Part shown: in pieces, positions 8,327-64,000 of the stretch
How the letters are laid out: every line of letters starts with the position of its first letter
How positions within the stretch are numbered: position 1 is the first letter of the stretch
Source of the DNA: Microbacterium esteraromaticum
GTDB lineage: Bacteria > Actinomycetota > Actinomycetes > Actinomycetales > Microbacteriaceae
Length of the DNA stretch: 64,000 bases
Reading direction: 5' to 3'
Assembly: GCF_028747645.1 (NCBI RefSeq)
Contig: NZ_CP118100.1
Coordinates: 1,302,001 to 1,366,000, forward strand
Translations under genes and position numbers: made by a program
The notes under the pieces: generated by a model
What the model was told of the DNA's origin: nothing
Seen by the model: only the letters and a program-made list of their open reading frames with translations
The model's database searches: none

Positions 8327-9457
8327 TCACCCGCTGCGCCGGGAACCCGTCGGATCGTTGCGGTGGCCTGACCCGCTCACATCAGGATCGGCGAACATCC
8401 ACCGCGGTCGCGGCTCGATGAGCGGGCGGAACAGTCTGCGCACCGGCTTCGAGGCCAGCACGAACGTCGTCGCCACCGACAGCAGAGTCACGGCCGGCAG
8501 CCAGAACCAGGTGGGGTCGAGACCGCGCAGCACGCCCGACTCGCGGAACGGGTACAGCACGAACGAGTGCAGCAGGTAGACGTACATCGTGTACTGGCCC
8601 AGCGTCGTCCACCACTGGCCGCGGCGCGGGATCAGCACGAAGAACGCTGCGCTGAGCACGATCGCCAACGTCATGACCACGAGCCGCACGCCGCCGGCCC
8701 ACCAGGTCAGTCCGCCGGTGAGCTCCGCGTAGGAGTCGTCGTAGAAGAACCACTGCCGCAGATCGACCGCATGCCAGACGTCGACCCAGTTCCACACCAC
8801 GAACGACCAGGCGGCGAGCACGGCGACCGCTCCCGCGCGCAGCCACCACGGCCGGTAGTCGATCAGCTGGAACCGTTGCACGATGTCGTGTTCGCTGAGC
8901 CACCAGCCGAGGGTGAAGAAGAACAGTAGCCCGAGGGTGCGCGAGAGCGAGAACGTGCTGTCGACGTTGCTCATGTAGCCGACGCCGATCGAGATCGCGA
9001 GTGCCCACACCAGCGGCCAGCGCAGTAGGGCGAGGTAGGGGAGCACCAGCCGGAAGATCCCCAGTGCGAGCAGGAACCACAGGGTCCATGACGGCTGGGT
9101 GAGGTTGGGGTCGGCCTGGCCTTCGACGAGCCATTTGGTAAGCATCCACAGCATCTCGAAGATGACGTAGGGGACGAGGATGTCCGTGATCACGCGTGCC
9201 ATCTGCCGCCGGTTGGGGCTGATGGACTTCGAGAAGTACCCCGAGATGATCGCGAACGCCGGCATGTGGAACGCGTAGATCACCAGGTACAGCGATTCCG
9301 CGATCTCGGAGTCGTAGGTCAACCGCTGGATGCCATGCCCCAGGACGACCAGGATCACGCACGCGAACCTGGCGTTGTCCCAGAACGGGACGCGGCGGCG
9401 CGGGCGGGGGATGGCTCCCGTCGTGGTGGCGGGAGGGTGTTGCTCGGCACTGCTCAT
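8327..9457 (-). CDS. Acyltransferase 3 (OafA/NodX-like) integral membrane protein
   Basis: A 376-residue membrane acyltransferase with about ten membrane segments. The family signature is at the N-terminus: WDNARFACVILVVLGHGIQR with the conserved membrane-facing His, then YAFHMPAFAIISGYF. These proteins O-acylate surface sugars or lipids using acyl-CoA. The C-terminal ~30 residues are Pro/Arg-rich and cytoplasmic. The start at 9457 is chosen because TACCCT lies six bases upstream, fitting a leaderless message; a longer version from 9481 has no ribosome site. The neighbouring 2OG oxygenase is on the same strand, 57 bp downstream. The acceptor is unknown. Confidence 0.85.
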   Translation of the reverse strand: MSSAEQHPPATTTGAIPRPRRRVPFWDNARFACVILVVLGHGIQRLTYDSEIAESLYLVIYAFHMPAFAIISGYFSKSISPNRRQMARVITDILVPYVIFEMLWMLTKWLVEGQADPNLTQPSWTLWFLLALGIFRLVLPYLALLRWPLVWALAISIGVGYMSNVDSTFSLSRTLGLLFFFTLGWWLSEHDIVQRFQLIDYRPWWLRAGAVAVLAAWSFVVWNWVDVWHAVDLRQWFFYDDSYAELTGGLTWWAGGVRLVVMTLAIVLSAAFFVLIPRRGQWWTTLGQYTMYVYLLHSFVLYPFRESGVLRGLDPTWFWLPAVTLLSVATTFVLASKPVRRLFRPLIEPRPRWMFADPDVSGSGHRNDPTGSRRSG

Positions 9458-58042: not shown

Positions 58043-58065
58043 TAAAATAGGTGAGCCTAACCTGC
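58043..58065 (+). promoter_or_regulatory. DtxR/IdeR-type iron box over the promoter of the iron-uptake operon
   Basis: ATAGGTGAGCCTAACCTGC (58047-58065) matches about 15 of 19 positions of the DtxR consensus. TAAAAT (58043-58048) is a good -10 that abuts it, so iron-loaded DtxR would block transcription when iron is plentiful. GAAGGGAA follows before the ATG at 58080. Confidence 0.75.
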
Positions 58066-58079
58066 CTGAAGGGAACCAT

Positions 58080-59096
58080 ATGCCTGTCATCCGCACGCGC
58101 CGGATCGCACCCGTCGTCGGAATCGCCGTCGCCGCGCTGCTCGTCGGATGCACTCCCGGCGGTGGTGACGACGCGTTGATCATCTACAACGCTCAGCACG
58201 AGCAGCTCACCGAGGAGTGGACGGCCGCGTTCACCGCAGAGACGGGTATCGAGGTCAAACTGCGTCACGGTGGCGACAGCGAACTCGCGAACCAGATCGT
58301 GCAGGAGGGCGACGCCTCGCCCGCCGATGTGTTCCTCACCGAGAACTCGCCCGCGATGGCACTCGTCGAGGATGCCGGACTCTTCGCCCCCATCGACGAG
58401 GCGACGCTGCAGCGGGTGCCCGAGCAGTTCCGCCCCAGCACCGGCTCCTGGACTGGCATCGCCGCACGCGACACGGTACTCGTCTACAACCCCGAGCTGA
58501 TCTCTGAGGACGAACTGCCCGCGTCGATCCTCGAGCTGCAGGATGAGAAGTGGCAGGGCCAGTGGGGAGCTGCGCCCGGTGGCGCCGACTTCCAGGCCAT
58601 CGTGTCGGCCATCCTCGCGTCGGAGGGCGAGGACGCGACCGCCGACTGGCTCGTTGGTATGCAGCGCAACGCCGAGATCTACCGCAACAACATCGTGACG
58701 ATGAAGGCGGTCAACGCCGGCGAGGTGCCGATGGGCATCATCTACCACTACTACTGGTACCGCGACCAGGCGAGCACCAAGGAGAACAGCGGCAATACGG
58801 CGCTGCATCTGTTCGAGCCGGGCGATCCGGGAGCTTTCGTCAGCATCTCGGGCGGCGGCGTCCTGGCATCCAGCGATCGCTCCGACGAGGCGCAGCAGTT
58901 CCTCACCTGGCTGGTCGGAGAGCAGGGGCAGACGATCCTTGGCGAGGGCTACAGCTACGAGTACCCAGTGGCCACCGGCATCCCCGCCCGCGCACCCCTT
59001 CCCGCGCTCGAGTCGCTCGGTGCGCCCGAGATCGACCCGTCCACGCTGAACGGCCCGACCGTGATCGACCTCATGACCGAGGCGGGACTGCTCTGA
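58080..59096 (+). CDS. fbpA: Ferric-iron ABC transporter substrate-binding lipoprotein
   Basis: A 338-residue iron-binding lipoprotein: lipobox ALLVGC with Cys24, then LIIYNAQHEQLTEEWTAAFT typical of FbpA/FutA, and IIYHYYWYRDQASTKENSGN holding the tyrosines that bind ferric iron. LQRVPEQFRPSTGSWTGIAA is another family stretch. The DtxR-type box upstream agrees with an iron role. Ends with a stop that overlaps a CTG triplet just before the permease gene. Confidence 0.9.
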   Translation: MPVIRTRRIAPVVGIAVAALLVGCTPGGGDDALIIYNAQHEQLTEEWTAAFTAETGIEVKLRHGGDSELANQIVQEGDASPADVFLTENSPAMALVEDAGLFAPIDEATLQRVPEQFRPSTGSWTGIAARDTVLVYNPELISEDELPASILELQDEKWQGQWGAAPGGADFQAIVSAILASEGEDATADWLVGMQRNAEIYRNNIVTMKAVNAGEVPMGIIYHYYWYRDQASTKENSGNTALHLFEPGDPGAFVSISGGGVLASSDRSDEAQQFLTWLVGEQGQTILGEGYSYEYPVATGIPARAPLPALESLGAPEIDPSTLNGPTVIDLMTEAGLL

Positions 59097-59158
59097 CACG
59101 CACAGCCGAGCGCCAGGCGGGTACAGAGCGTCCGCGCGGCGCACGGTCGTACCCCTGG

Positions 59159-60643
59159 ATGCTGGCAATCGGCGTCGCCGCGGCCGCTGCGATCGCGCTG
59201 ATCCCCGTCGGCTATGTGGTCGTGTCGTCGATCCAGACGGGCCTTCCTCGACTGATCGAGCTGCTCGTGCGCCCGAGAGTCGCCGAGCTGACCGTCAACA
59301 CGGTGCTGCTCGTGGTGCTGGGAGTGGCCGCGACGCTCGTCGTGGGCATCGGCGGGGCATGGCTGGTCGAGCGAACCTCGTTGCCGCTGCGCCGGTTCTT
59401 CGCGATCGCGTTGGCGGCGCCCTTGGCGATCCCCGCGTTCGTGACCAGCTACGGCTGGGCGAGCGTCGCCCCCTGGCTGGGCGGGCTCGGTGGTGCGGTG
59501 CTGATCGCCGCCTGCGCGTACTCACCGCTGGTGTACCTGCCGGCGGTCGCGGCCCTGCGCGGCCTCGACCCTGCGCTCGAAGAGAGCGCTCGCTCGCTCG
59601 GGCTCGGTCCATGGCGGGTGTTCGCGCGTGTGGTGCTGCCACAGCTGAGGATGGCCGCCATCGGCGGTGGCCTCGTGGTCGGACTGCACCTCCTCGCGGA
59701 GTACGGCGCGTTCGCGTTCCTCGAGTTCGGCACGTTCACCACCGCGATCATGGACGCCTACCGTGCGAACTTCGGCGGTGCTCTCGCGGCCGCCCTTGGA
59801 GTAGTGCTTGCCGCTCTGTGCCTTCTGCTCGTGATCGGTGAGAACCGCCTGCGGGGCACGTCGCGACTGTCGCGCAGCGCGGCATCCCGCCCCGGCGGAC
59901 GTGCGGACCTCGGTCGCTGGACGGCGCCGGCGGTGCTCGCCCTGCTCGTCTTCCTCAGTGCAGCGGTGCTCGTCCCGCTGTCTTCAGTGCTGCGATGGTC
60001 GCTGAGCAGCGGACTCGACGACTGGGCGTCCGTCGTGCCCGCAGCCGGTCAGACCGTGCTGCTGTCGGTGGGGGGAGCGCTCGTGTGCCTGCTCGTGGCA
60101 CTGCCTGTCGCCTGGCTGGCGGTACGTCACCGCGGACGGATCAGCGGCACGCTGGAGGGCGCCTTCTACGTCGCCGGGAGCTTTCCCGCAATCATCGTGG
60201 CGCTGGCACTGGTGGGCGTCACACTCACGGTCGCCCCGATGCTGTACCAAACGGCCGTCACCGTGATCGTGGCGTACGCGATCCTGTTCCTGCCTCGGCT
60301 CCTCGTGCCGTTGCGCGCCGGGCTCGCCCAGATCTCGCCCGCCTGGGAAGAGTCGGCCCGGTCGCTGGGCGTCCCGCCCTGGCGGGCCCGCCTGCGCGTC
60401 ACCGTGCCGTTGCTCGTGCCCGCCGCCGCCAGCGGAGCGGCACTGGTGGCGCTCGGCGCCTCGAACGAGCTGACGGCCACGCTGCTTCTCGCGCCGATCG
60501 GCACCGAGACCGTTGCGACCGGGTTCTGGTCGGCGGCCTCAGCCCTCGACTACGTGTCGGCCGCTCCCTACGCGCTGACCCTGATCGCACTGTCGGTACC
60601 GGCCGTGCATCTGATGTTCTCTGAAGCGACGGGGCGTGCATGA
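59159..60643 (+). CDS. fbpB: Ferric-iron ABC transporter permease (double-domain)
   Basis: A 494-residue permease with two homologous halves, about twelve membrane segments, as in FbpB/SfuB. The two EAA-like loops are LEESARSLGLGPWRVFARVV and WEESARSLGVPPWRARLRVT. The start is uncertain. The first ATG in frame is 59159, directly at the first membrane segment and without a ribosome site. However, frame-open sequence (LTRTAERQAGTERPRGARSY) extends back to CTG 59093, which overlaps the fbpA stop (CTGA) exactly like the ATGA overlaps elsewhere in the window. It overlaps fbpC by four bases. Confidence 0.85.
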   Translation: MLAIGVAAAAAIALIPVGYVVVSSIQTGLPRLIELLVRPRVAELTVNTVLLVVLGVAATLVVGIGGAWLVERTSLPLRRFFAIALAAPLAIPAFVTSYGWASVAPWLGGLGGAVLIAACAYSPLVYLPAVAALRGLDPALEESARSLGLGPWRVFARVVLPQLRMAAIGGGLVVGLHLLAEYGAFAFLEFGTFTTAIMDAYRANFGGALAAALGVVLAALCLLLVIGENRLRGTSRLSRSAASRPGGRADLGRWTAPAVLALLVFLSAAVLVPLSSVLRWSLSSGLDDWASVVPAAGQTVLLSVGGALVCLLVALPVAWLAVRHRGRISGTLEGAFYVAGSFPAIIVALALVGVTLTVAPMLYQTAVTVIVAYAILFLPRLLVPLRAGLAQISPAWEESARSLGVPPWRARLRVTVPLLVPAAASGAALVALGASNELTATLLLAPIGTETVATGFWSAASALDYVSAAPYALTLIALSVPAVHLMFSEATGRA

Positions 60644-61704
60644 CTCTTCGACTCGAACGTGTGGGCAAGTCCTTCGGCGCGACCGAGGTACTCCGAGACG
60701 TCGACTTCGCCGTACCGGACGGTGCGCGGATGGCACTCGTGGGAGCATCCGGCAGCGGCAAGAGTACGCTGTTGCGGCTGATCGCCGGATTCGAGCGGCC
60801 CGACAGAGGCAGCATCGTGCTCGGTGACACGCTGCTCGCCGACCCCCGCACCTCGGTGCCCGCCCACCGCCGAGGCATCGGATACGTGCCGCAGGACGGT
60901 GCGCTCTTTCCGCACCTCACAGTGGCCGCCAACATCGCCTTCGGCCTGTCGCGTGGACCGGGGCGGGCGCAGCGGGTGCGCGAGATGATGGAGCTCACCT
61001 CGCTGGCGCCGGAACTCGCCGATCGCCGTCCGCACGAGCTGTCGGGCGGTCAACAGCAGCGAGTGGCACTGGCCCGCGCGCTCGCGCCCGCGCCCGGCGT
61101 GCTGCTGCTGGACGAGCCGTTCAGCGCCCTCGATGCAGGCCTGCGCGCACAGACGCGTGAGGCGACGATCGACATCCTCGAGCACGCCCGAGTGACCACG
61201 GTGCTGGTCACCCACGATCAGGACGAGGCTCTGTCGTTCGGGAACCTCATCGGTGTGGTCACGGCGGGCAGGCTCGCTCAGAACGGTGAGCCCGGGGCCG
61301 TGTTCGATGCGCCGGCCGATCGGGCCACGGCGGACTTCCTCGGAGACGCGCTGTACCTGCGCGCGCGCAGGGAGAGCATCGGTACGATCACGTGCGCGCT
61401 CGGAACGGTGTCCGTGCGGCATGATCTGTCGGCGGGTGCCCCCGAGATTCTCGCCATGGTGCGCCCCAGCCAGCTGGAGATGGTCTCTGACGCGACCGGC
61501 GCCGAGGGGATCATCGCGGGCTCGGCGACGATCACGGCACGGCGCGCCGTCGGCGCCCGCACCGAGCTGCGCGTCGACATCATGGGGGAGGACCGCACCC
61601 GCGTCTGGTTGCAGGTGCCTACGCACCGCGCTGCCGAGACCAACGACGGTGACGTCATCACCCTGCGCGTCGGCGGTGGTGCTGTGCTCTATCCCGCGCG
61701 CTGA
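60640..61704 (+). CDS. fbpC: Ferric-iron ABC transporter ATP-binding protein
   Basis: A 354-residue ATPase: Walker A GASGSGKSTLL, signature LSGGQQQRVALARAL, Walker B LLLDEPFSALD and the switch region VTHDQDEALSFG. A regulatory C-terminal domain covers ~240-354. It completes the iron importer and overlaps fbpB by four bases. Its 3' end also overlaps the convergent adenylation-acyltransferase gene by 47 bp, so the two messages are complementary there. Confidence 0.92.
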   Translation: MTLRLERVGKSFGATEVLRDVDFAVPDGARMALVGASGSGKSTLLRLIAGFERPDRGSIVLGDTLLADPRTSVPAHRRGIGYVPQDGALFPHLTVAANIAFGLSRGPGRAQRVREMMELTSLAPELADRRPHELSGGQQQRVALARALAPAPGVLLLDEPFSALDAGLRAQTREATIDILEHARVTTVLVTHDQDEALSFGNLIGVVTAGRLAQNGEPGAVFDAPADRATADFLGDALYLRARRESIGTITCALGTVSVRHDLSAGAPEILAMVRPSQLEMVSDATGAEGIIAGSATITARRAVGARTELRVDIMGEDRTRVWLQVPTHRAAETNDGDVITLRVGGGAVLYPAR

Positions 61705-64000
61705 CGGCGCGCTGCGCGCGGCGGTACAGGGCCCAGACGACGACACCGACCGCGAGGGAGAGGACCGTTCCGACCGCGGGCGCGGTCAGCTCGAACGGCG
61801 GGTACACCACCCAGTGGGTGAGGTAGATGAACAGCGAGGCCGAGGCGAGTGTGGTGAGCACGGGACGCACCGCGGTCGGCACCGGCACGGCCGGCACCCA
61901 GATCAGGGCGAGCACACCGACGGCCACGATGGCCTCGCGCAGTGGATCGCCGAAGAACCCGGGGATGAGGGCGATCGCGAGCACCGTCGCGAGCGCACGC
62001 CGGCGTGTGCTGTCGGCACGCGCGATGACGGCCCCGAGCGCGATGCACCAGAGCACGGTGGCGATGGCATATCGTTCCACGTGCTGAGCAGGGTCCAGGC
62101 CGAGCAGCGCGAAGCGCACGGCGACGGTCACGAACAGAGCACCCAGCGCGAAGGCCCACGGGGTTCGACGTTCGAACCGATCGACGGCCGGTATCGCGAA
62201 GGCCGCTGAGAGCAGCAGCATGGTCCACACCACCGCCTCGAGGAACCAGAACTGCCACTGCTCGTTCCACAGGCCGTCCGCGGGCACGGCGTTGTTCACG
62301 AGCAGGGCGGTCGTCGGGTCGTACTTGCCACTGAGCAGTCCGACGGCGCCGATCCACAGCACGGCCGGAACAGCGATCTGCGCCACCGCGGTGAGCAGCC
62401 GGCGCGGGCGGTCCCGTGCCGACGGTGAAAGTGCGAACCGGGCGAGGTTGTACCCGGCGACCACGAGCAGCAGATGAGCGCCGCCCTTGAGCGAGAAGCC
62501 GTCGCCGAGGAACAGATCTGCGTGCGTGCCCACGACCAGGACGATCGCGATCGCGCGCAGAAGCACGGGCGTCTCAAGCGCGGCGATGGCGCGGCGGGGC
62601 GTCGCCTCTCGCGCAGTGGGGCCGCCCTGGGCGGGGTCTGCCACGCGGGCAGCATCCGTCCCGCGTGCGCGGCCCGTCGCGCCGAGCGCGGCAAGCTCGG
62701 TGCCTGATCGCGACGGCCAGTCGCGGGGGAGCGGACCGAGCAGATCCTCCAATCGTACGGCGGCCTCGACGTAGCTCAAGGAGTCGCCGCTGAGCCCGGC
62801 GAAGCTGTCGTCGACCGTGGCATCCGCTCTGCCCGTGCACACGGCGAGGACGTCGCGCACGCGAGCGGGCGTGATCTCCGCCGCCGAGCGCGCCTCCGAC
62901 GACGGCGCGGCGGCGCGCTCGGCGCGGTGGTGCGCGACGAGCGCAGCGTTGTCAGGCTTGCCCGATGAGGTCACCGGGAACGCGTCCACGACGTGCACGG
63001 TCACCGCCGTCGCGGGCAGACCGACACGCTGTGACACCTCGTCGCGCGCTCGGGTCGCGTCGCGACCGTGTCGGACGAAGACGAGCAACTCCTCGCCGTC
63101 GGCCGCAGCGCGCGACGGAATCCCGACGTCGTCGAGGTGGCTCTGTACAGCATCGAGATCCACGCGCAGCCCGAAGACCTTCACGAAGCGGTTCATCCGG
63201 CCGACGATCTCGACATAGCCGTCCGGTCGCCTTCGTGCGAGATCGCCGGTGCGCAGCTCGTGCACCGTCCGACCCAGCGCGAGGTCGGCAGGTTGTTCGG
63301 CGTAGCCGAGCATGACGTTCGGGCCGGAGTACACCAGTTCACCCGACTCGCCGTCGTGGGCGTCGATACGGAATGATCCGCCGGGGATCGGTCGGCCGAT
63401 CGAGCCCGCTGCCCGTTCGGCGTCCTCGGACGGCACGTACGACATCCGGGCCGTCGCCTCGGTCTGCCCGTACATGCTGAAGAACTCGAAGCCCTGCGCG
63501 CGTCCGGCCCGGGCGAGAGCGCGCACACGCTCGGCGGGCAGACGCCCGCCGGCCTGCGTCAGATAGCGGATGCTGCGGGGCAGCCTCTCGGTACCGCCGA
63601 CGGCGTCGATCAGCTCGAACGTGTAGGGCACGCCGGCGAGACCGGTGATGCTCGTCTGCGCTGCGCGTGGCCAGAATCGCTCGTCGGTGACGGAGAGGTC
63701 CGAGAGCACCAGGCTGCCTCCGGCGAGCAGGTGACTGTTGATGACCGACAGCCCGTAGCAGTAGTGCATCGGGAGGGTGGTGATCGCGCGGTCGTCGTGC
63801 TCGAGTCGCAGGTACTCGGCGATCGCGGCGGCGTTGGACAGCAGAGCGTTGGCCGAGATGCGGACGAGCTTCGGCGAGCCCGTGGAACCGGATGTGCTGG
63901 TGAGGAGCGCGAGATCTTCGTGCAGGGTGTGCGCGGTGCCCGGCCTGCGCTCGATGATCGTCCCGTCGCCGGTGAGGACGTCCGGGTCGAAACGCTCGAT
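61658..64000 (-). CDS. Adenylation-carrier-acyltransferase 3 fusion protein (N-terminus off the window)
   Basis: The visible 780 residues (gene continues past 64000) carry three units. First an adenylate-forming domain: A3 LTSTSGSTGSPKLVR, A5 MYGQTEAT, A7 ELRTGDLARRRPDGY, A8 GRMNRFVKVFGLRV and A10 SSGKPDNAAL. Then a carrier domain with the phosphopantetheine serine in GLSGDSLSY (codon 62780-62782). Then an acyltransferase 3 domain with ~10 membrane segments beginning LLRAIAIVLVVGTHADLF. The order suggests that an acid is activated, tethered and then passed to a lipid or surface sugar by one protein. Substrate and acceptor unknown. Its end overlaps fbpC by 47 bp on the opposite strand. Confidence 0.8.
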   Translation of the reverse strand: MERFDPDVLTGDGTIIERRPGTAHTLHEDLALLTSTSGSTGSPKLVRISANALLSNAAAIAEYLRLEHDDRAITTLPMHYCYGLSVINSHLLAGGSLVLSDLSVTDERFWPRAAQTSITGLAGVPYTFELIDAVGGTERLPRSIRYLTQAGGRLPAERVRALARAGRAQGFEFFSMYGQTEATARMSYVPSEDAERAAGSIGRPIPGGSFRIDAHDGESGELVYSGPNVMLGYAEQPADLALGRTVHELRTGDLARRRPDGYVEIVGRMNRFVKVFGLRVDLDAVQSHLDDVGIPSRAAADGEELLVFVRHGRDATRARDEVSQRVGLPATAVTVHVVDAFPVTSSGKPDNAALVAHHRAERAAAPSSEARSAAEITPARVRDVLAVCTGRADATVDDSFAGLSGDSLSYVEAAVRLEDLLGPLPRDWPSRSGTELAALGATGRARGTDAARVADPAQGGPTAREATPRRAIAALETPVLLRAIAIVLVVGTHADLFLGDGFSLKGGAHLLLVVAGYNLARFALSPSARDRPRRLLTAVAQIAVPAVLWIGAVGLLSGKYDPTTALLVNNAVPADGLWNEQWQFWFLEAVVWTMLLLSAAFAIPAVDRFERRTPWAFALGALFVTVAVRFALLGLDPAQHVERYAIATVLWCIALGAVIARADSTRRRALATVLAIALIPGFFGDPLREAIVAVGVLALIWVPAVPVPTAVRPVLTTLASASLFIYLTHWVVYPPFELTAPAVGTVLSLAVGVVVWALYRRAQRAVSARDRAQHHRRRAG

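Follow-up and report, generated by a model that had tools for sequence, protein, structure and literature searches.

The Dlt system modifies surface polymers through adenylation, a phosphopantetheine carrier and membrane acyl transfer, and its membrane protein, DltB, has the MBOAT fold. The steps of DltA and DltC are described in the accessible part of PMC4792211. The poly-amino-acid synthetases Pls and PosA place adenylation, carrier and C-terminal membrane domains in one chain, the last of these comprising six membrane helices as well as beta-helix domains; they polymerize amino acids (PMC10522769, accessible part). Enzymes of the acyltransferase 3 family (AT3, PF01757), such as OafB and OatA, carry an R-X10-H motif in the first membrane helix; the motif is described in PMC9833829, where the AT3 fusions named have an SGNH or an alanine racemase domain as partner, with further ones in Eukarya, and a fusion with adenylation and carrier domains is not among them in the accessible text. 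Here, we analysed a gene in a stretch of 64,000 nucleotides of the Microbacterium esteraromaticum genome (NZ_CP118100.1, positions 1302001-1366000; hereafter the window), whose product combines an adenylation domain, a carrier and an AT3 membrane domain and lies beside a ferric importer operon of the same type as SfuABC, YfuABC and FbpABC. This tridomain protein resembles Dlt in its logic, but it is one chain, has an AT3 domain in place of DltB, lacks the Asp typical of amino acid activation and appears to be regulated by iron. It also differs from Pls and PosA in its AT3 domain and in having no amino-acid signature. In Microbacterium, the type A 'NRPS' (nonribosomal peptide synthetase) likewise contains an adenylation domain, a peptidyl carrier and a terminal domain with acyltransferase activity, and a siderophore role was suspected; however, it always lies beside an aminopeptidase N gene, its predicted substrate is Gly, Ala or a hydrophilic compound, and no ferric importer is mentioned in the accessible part of the report (PMC7438953). 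It is set apart here by this description only, and the two families may overlap. In the open-licence literature, which leaves most subscription journals uncovered, we found no account of this architecture or of its link with iron and no characterised family with the same domain order, in keeping with the original prediction made from the window. Nor are we aware of an SfuABC system described as having an acyltransferase gene attached, and none was found in the same literature.

The open reading frame of the tridomain gene is open for 780 codons up to the window edge, and the genome sequence (one contig of 3,197,365 bases) adds 303 bases beyond it; an alternative start, GTG at 64282, seven codons downstream of the ATG, would give a protein of 874 amino acids. 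In this one frame, Pfam domains AMP-binding (residues 126-334, E 3e-40), PP-binding (residues 481-523, E 5e-4, 20.7 bits, marginally below the cut-off of 20.8) and Acyl_transf_3 (residues 581-856, E 7e-14, 52.0 bits, gathering cut-off 31) follow one another. The motifs TSGSTGSPK, YGQTEA, TGDLA, GRMNRFVKVFGLRVDLD, SGKPD and GDSL (S508) and the AT3 histidine (H594) were all present. Thus, the A3, A5, A7, A8 and A10 motifs, the GDSL carrier and the AT3 histidine that had been read from the window were confirmed, and retrieval of the N-terminus completed the expected architecture. All three Pfam domains were matched in each of 20 aligned close relatives, while 32 more distant ones matched AMP-binding (32/32), PP-binding (30/32) and Acyl_transf_3 (29/32, E up to 0.01). 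The A3, A5, A7, A8 and A10 motifs were invariant or almost so in the 20 close rows, and the S/T-rich loop, E282, D354, K375 and K449, which include the catalytic Lys expected of ANL enzymes, were invariant in 20/20. The carrier serine of the GDSL-like motif was kept in 20/20 close and 32/32 distant rows (52/52), as was the R-X10-H motif (R583 and H594) in the first membrane helix. Since the catalytic residues are conserved and the full-length frame is kept in many genera of both Actinobacteria and Alphaproteobacteria, a frameshift, an assembly join or a decayed fusion of two genes, which had been raised as grounds for doubt together with loss of the carrier serine, can be rejected as virtually impossible. 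Almost certainly, therefore, one polypeptide joins acid activation, its own carrier and an AT3 membrane domain in a single-chain enzyme.

Two predicted DtxR-type iron boxes frame the locus, one a short way upstream of the tridomain gene and the other before the importer operon (table 1), both compared with the consensus TTAGGTTAG(G/C)CTAACCTAA (PMC1382209, accessible part). A match as good as the tridomain-gene box was obtained in 0/200 shuffles of the 16 kb locus. The boxes have in common a 16-base core, TAGGTGAGCCTAACCT, which has no further exact copy in the genome. Sites with at most three mismatches numbered five, and none was found with the reversed pattern. One of the five lies at the tridomain gene, three at genes for binding proteins of siderophore type (Peripla_BP_2) and one at a pyridine nucleotide oxidoreductase gene; SIP and FecCD domains occur among the genes at these sites, one binding-protein site being shared with the SIP gene. 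Because the other sites lie mostly at iron-related genes, the DtxR-type pattern marks iron genes in this genome. At its 3' end, the ATPase gene of the importer shares 47 bases with the tridomain gene, to which it is convergent.

Table 1. Features of the tridomain locus and its importer (window coordinates)
Feature	Position	Strand	Remarks
Tridomain gene, window part	61658..64000	-	full gene 61658-64303, 881 amino acids from ATG
Adenylation (ANL) domain, window part	62924..64000	-	residues to about 460; first 101 residues outside window
Carrier domain	62669..62863	-	residues about 481-545; S508 at 62780-62782
AT3 domain	61706..62581	-	residues about 575-866; R583 at 62555-62557, H594 at 62522-62524
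DtxR-type iron box of tridomain gene, CTAGGTGAGCCTAACCTAT	64313-64331 (window-equivalent)		just outside window; 3 mismatches to consensus
DtxR-type iron box before importer operon, ATAGGTGAGCCTAACCTGC	58047..58065	+	4 mismatches to consensus
SfuA/YfuA-type ferric-iron-binding lipoprotein	58080..59096	+	338 amino acids; YfuA (1xvx) E 3.8e-117, SfuA (1xvy) E 1.7e-113
Importer permease	59099..60643 (start approximate)	+	profile built on the iron ABC permeases annotated in L142, L143 and L147
Importer ATPase	60640..61704	+	ABC_tran E 8.8e-36

The association with iron was then compared among relatives. Of the 80 loci listed from a named genome collection, 27 with a frame below 780 amino acids, mostly stand-alone adenylation domains and some at contig ends or broken (L105, L117 and L128), were excluded from the counts of boxes, importers and RirA sites, while L086, whose contig ends within the gene, was retained. 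Sixty actinobacterial loci (36 from the named collection, 4 from plasmids and 20 further) were scored. A box with at most six mismatches was found at the tridomain gene in 43 of them, an adjoining importer (binding protein plus permease) in 37, both in 21 and either in 59; the sole locus with neither was L072, whose best box has seven mismatches. Importers had a box of their own in 33/37 cases. Near the gene start, the best box had at most six mismatches in 40/72 loci, compared with 29/2596 random windows from the same loci; L047, in which a contig edge precedes the gene, was left out of the 72 and scored boxless among the 60. The importer was convergent in 11 loci, upstream on the same strand in 14, divergent in 8 and downstream on the same strand in 4, and the tree requires at least 13 changes of arrangement. 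Among 398 genomes of the family, a close relative of the binding protein occurred in 10/19 with the tridomain gene and 18/379 without it, with kinship ignored and the threshold (E 1e-110) chosen after the data were seen. The eight most similar binding proteins, including that of the window, all adjoin a tridomain gene, and within the genus a binding protein above 75% identity was found solely in the two genomes with the gene. Plasmids gave a similar picture: in 4/4 Rhodococcus plasmids fetched, of six listed, the operon order was tridomain-binding protein-permease-ATPase, and in 3/3 from Mycolicibacterium it was binding protein-permease-ATPase-tridomain, while plasmids of Arthrobacter and Pseudarthrobacter carried the tridomain gene alone. 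A box with at most six mismatches preceded the first gene on 9/9 plasmids of these four genera, and was found in 44/1800 random windows. These data make it very probable that the tridomain gene belongs to an iron regulon together with a ferric importer, regulator binding itself being a prediction. The four-gene cassette was seen on large plasmids in L142, L143, L147, L158, L159, L160 and L162, several of which also have adjoining metal-resistance genes (P-type ATPases, ArsR regulators and a cadmium transporter).

Full-length relatives were found in 2/59 genomes of the genus, the source genome included, and a match of E 1e-60 or better was obtained in at least 20 of the 398 family genomes, at full length in 19; this count is a lower bound, since two candidates were scored per genome. 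Among the matches listed, the actinobacterial loci of the named collection represent Agromyces, Arthrobacter, Streptomyces, Mycolicibacterium, Nocardioides, Lentzea and Cellulomonas, and relatives of 32-37% identity come from Rhizobium, Sinorhizobium, Mesorhizobium, Caulobacteraceae, Leisingera and others. On plasmids, 58 records reached E 1e-60 or better, Rhizobium accounting for 40. In the 40 of the 58 records whose annotations were listed, all but one were named 'AMP-binding protein' alone or first, the remaining one being 'AMP-dependent synthetase and ligase'. A 52-row tree placed the nine alphaproteobacterial rows in one group.

In the Rhizobiales, DtxR boxes were absent from the loci, as expected, and the sequence TGA-N9-TCA, the operator of RirA (PMC6386902 and PMC8822346, accessible parts), stood at the gene start in 10/11 loci, several of the species being close kin, compared with 0/9 other alphaproteobacterial loci. 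A longer pattern, TTGAY-N8-TCA, chosen after the data were seen, gave 10/20 against 48/3800. Polysaccharide genes adjoin three of the nine alphaproteobacterial loci outside the Rhizobiales, all without iron boxes (L106 and L107 were not searched): a sugar transferase gene in L090 and flippase genes in L096 and L097. These three loci, from Sphingomonadales and Caulobacterales, encode adenylation-AT3 fusions in the same order; the protein of L097 has the GDSL motif, though Pfam gives no PP-binding match. A second AT3 gene adjoins L104, and L103, L098 and L145 have unrelated neighbours.

The acid that is activated can be narrowed down from the adenylation domain. In amino-acid-activating adenylation domains, an Asp anchors the alpha-amino group. 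Aligned with LgrA, which served as reference rather than DltA, the tridomain protein has G184 (one LgrA module) or C182 (the other) at this position. Because Asp is lacking there, D-alanine is an unlikely substrate, and the sequence suggests that the acid is probably a common carboxylic acid of the cell, either hydroxy or di/tricarboxylic. For the carrier, the genome encodes one phosphopantetheinyl transferase, of AcpS type. The membrane domain matched Acyl_transf_3 in Pfam and no MBOAT family. A structural model of the Agromyces homologue had a mean predicted local distance difference test score (pLDDT) of 85.3 and a predicted template modelling score (pTM) of 0.56, with a linker of pLDDT below 50 (residues 573-605) between the carrier and the membrane part, which is in line with a carrier that swings; modelled by itself, the AT3 part gave good scores (pLDDT 93.6, pTM 0.91). 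HGSNAT, which transfers acetyl across a membrane, resembles this AT3 model. So does a 637-residue viral protein (BFVD entry A0A345N001; E 1.2e-4, TM 0.58 by query).

Since a single chain combines these steps and relatives occur in polysaccharide loci of some Alphaproteobacteria, the protein is most naturally read as an enzyme that hands an acid to an acceptor at the surface. This part of the original prediction, that the protein could load an acid on its own carrier and pass it to a surface acceptor, is supported by the domain order and by those relatives; the amino acid that had been allowed as its substrate is disfavoured by the missing Asp. From the domain families, acyl transfer on the outer face of the membrane appears quite probable. 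We favour acyl transfer to an exofacial glycan, which Actinobacteria and Rhizobiales would have turned to iron, because no IucA/IucC or condensation domain was found, the Asp signature is absent and relatives lie in polysaccharide loci. Under low iron, a repressor of DtxR/IdeR type (RirA in Rhizobiales) would release the promoter, and AcpS would prime S508. The adenylation domain would then activate the acid with ATP and load it onto its own carrier, which, on its flexible linker, could dock where the AT3 domain opens to the cytoplasm; this domain would move the acyl group across the membrane and attach it to an acceptor at the outer face, the likeliest being a glycan or a molecule that bears sugar. 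Finally, the acylated product may bind or mobilize Fe3+ near the membrane and hand it to the SfuABC-type importer. That iron is captured by the acylated product is suggested by the neighbouring genes and can be proposed tentatively; the reading as a whole, in which iron starvation induces a self-loading acyltransferase whose exofacial product aids Fe3+ delivery, is plausible but short of probable.

Several observations weigh against this reading. An adjoining importer was not found in 23/60 actinobacterial loci, and no SfuA-type pair lay within the examined stretch of the 11 Rhizobiales loci, where the box is the sole link to iron. TGA-N9-TCA is short, being carried by 274/3816 control windows, and was spotted by eye in the sequences before counting. 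Some of the related loci are near copies of one another. Moreover, RXXR, a motif of the third membrane helix at its cytoplasmic side that is essential in the AT3 enzymes studied and has been proposed as a binding site for the 3'-phosphate of CoA, was off the usual place in 52/52 rows (R..R..P there in 0/52), unlike in OafB and OatA; any R..R within 16 residues before the Pro was seen in 20/52 rows, including the protein of the window. Because the accessible part of PMC9833829, on which this description of the motif draws, calls RXXR 'highly', not absolutely, conserved in AT3 enzymes, the protein was kept as a divergent AT3. Its absence from that place would fit a donor lacking this phosphate, but of the four other complete AT3 proteins encoded in the genome one also lacks RXXR, which is present in 3/4. 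The donor is presumably an acyl group on the protein's own carrier rather than acyl-CoA. A second, free-standing AT3 protein, encoded in the window at 8453-9385 on the minus strand, has R-X10-H and no RXXR in the examined stretch.

Instead of a glycan, the activated acid could be joined to a small acceptor, so that the protein would be a one-gene siderophore synthase whose soluble chelator leaves the cell. Iron boxes and a ferric importer at tridomain loci speak for such an enzyme, and some AT3 enzymes do act on small molecules. MdmB and others are named in the accessible part of PMC9833829. IucA/IucC and condensation domains were found neither anywhere in the genome nor in the tridomain protein, hence neither major siderophore route is present. 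A major facilitator superfamily (MFS) transporter gene (L007:6473-7699, window-equivalent 64472-65698) is divergent from the tridomain gene, with the iron box in between; however, this pair occurs in the source genome and G014 only, 2/80 loci. The importer type next to the gene takes up Fe3+ itself and not chelates, dedicated precursor genes were not seen in the annotated loci, and the relatives in polysaccharide loci point elsewhere. We thus regard a soluble siderophore as unlikely.

Another explanation is an envelope change under iron starvation, in which a surface glycan or lipid is acylated for protection or to spare resources and the importer is near through shared regulation only. The actinobacterial and Rhizobiales loci without an adjoining importer (23/60 and 11/11) agree with it, and AT3 enzymes are best known for altering surface glycans (PMC9833829, accessible part). 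Nevertheless, linkage to the same importer has been kept through four arrangements and no fewer than 13 changes on the tree, and genes overlap within operons, both of which argue for joint work of enzyme and importer and make this explanation quite unlikely. A one-gene analogue of Dlt, esterifying D-alanine or another amino acid to a surface polymer and so altering its charge, a narrow version of the original idea, shares the logic of adenylation, carrier and membrane transfer, but is very unlikely given the missing amino-group Asp, an AT3 domain rather than MBOAT, and the tie to iron uptake.

Returning to the exofacial glycan, its furthest consequence would be a third bacterial route to iron beside the nonribosomal and NRPS-independent siderophores, in which a glycan-mounted acid serves as a cell-bound Fe3+ ligand feeding an SfuABC-type importer. 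As a proposal this is speculative and somewhat unlikely, and so is its extension, in which the four genes would travel as a cassette, on plasmids too, and the enzyme would have been recruited to iron regulons whose two regulators are unrelated. Should this hold, many bacteria of soils or associated with plants would own an iron-uptake enzyme annotated merely as 'AMP-binding protein', AT3 enzymes would gain a donor built on a covalent carrier, and a single chain would be shown to activate and export an acid. It would also account for how SfuABC-type importers may be supplied with Fe3+ in organisms in which siderophore genes are not known.

The adenylation domain has further relatives outside the fusion. 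Its best NCBIfam match was TIGR03098 (exosortase A-associated acyl-CoA ligase; E 4.3e-44), but membership was ruled out, the score of 150.8 bits being far under the cut-off of 592; of the fused relatives, L097 has genes for an exosortase-associated hydrolase-like protein and the flippase-like protein nearby. Free-standing adenylation proteins, 35-45% identical to the domain, occur in Shewanella, Clostridium and others, in cassettes where LuxE- and LuxC-like proteins come after the carrier and adenylation proteins. In L131, L140, L115 and L060, a lone adenylation protein forms a cassette with a small carrier and LuxE-like and LuxC-like proteins, of which LuxE and LuxC in L131 are confirmed by Pfam and all else is assigned by eye; these cassettes differ from the tridomain protein in their separate carrier and in having no AT3 domain.

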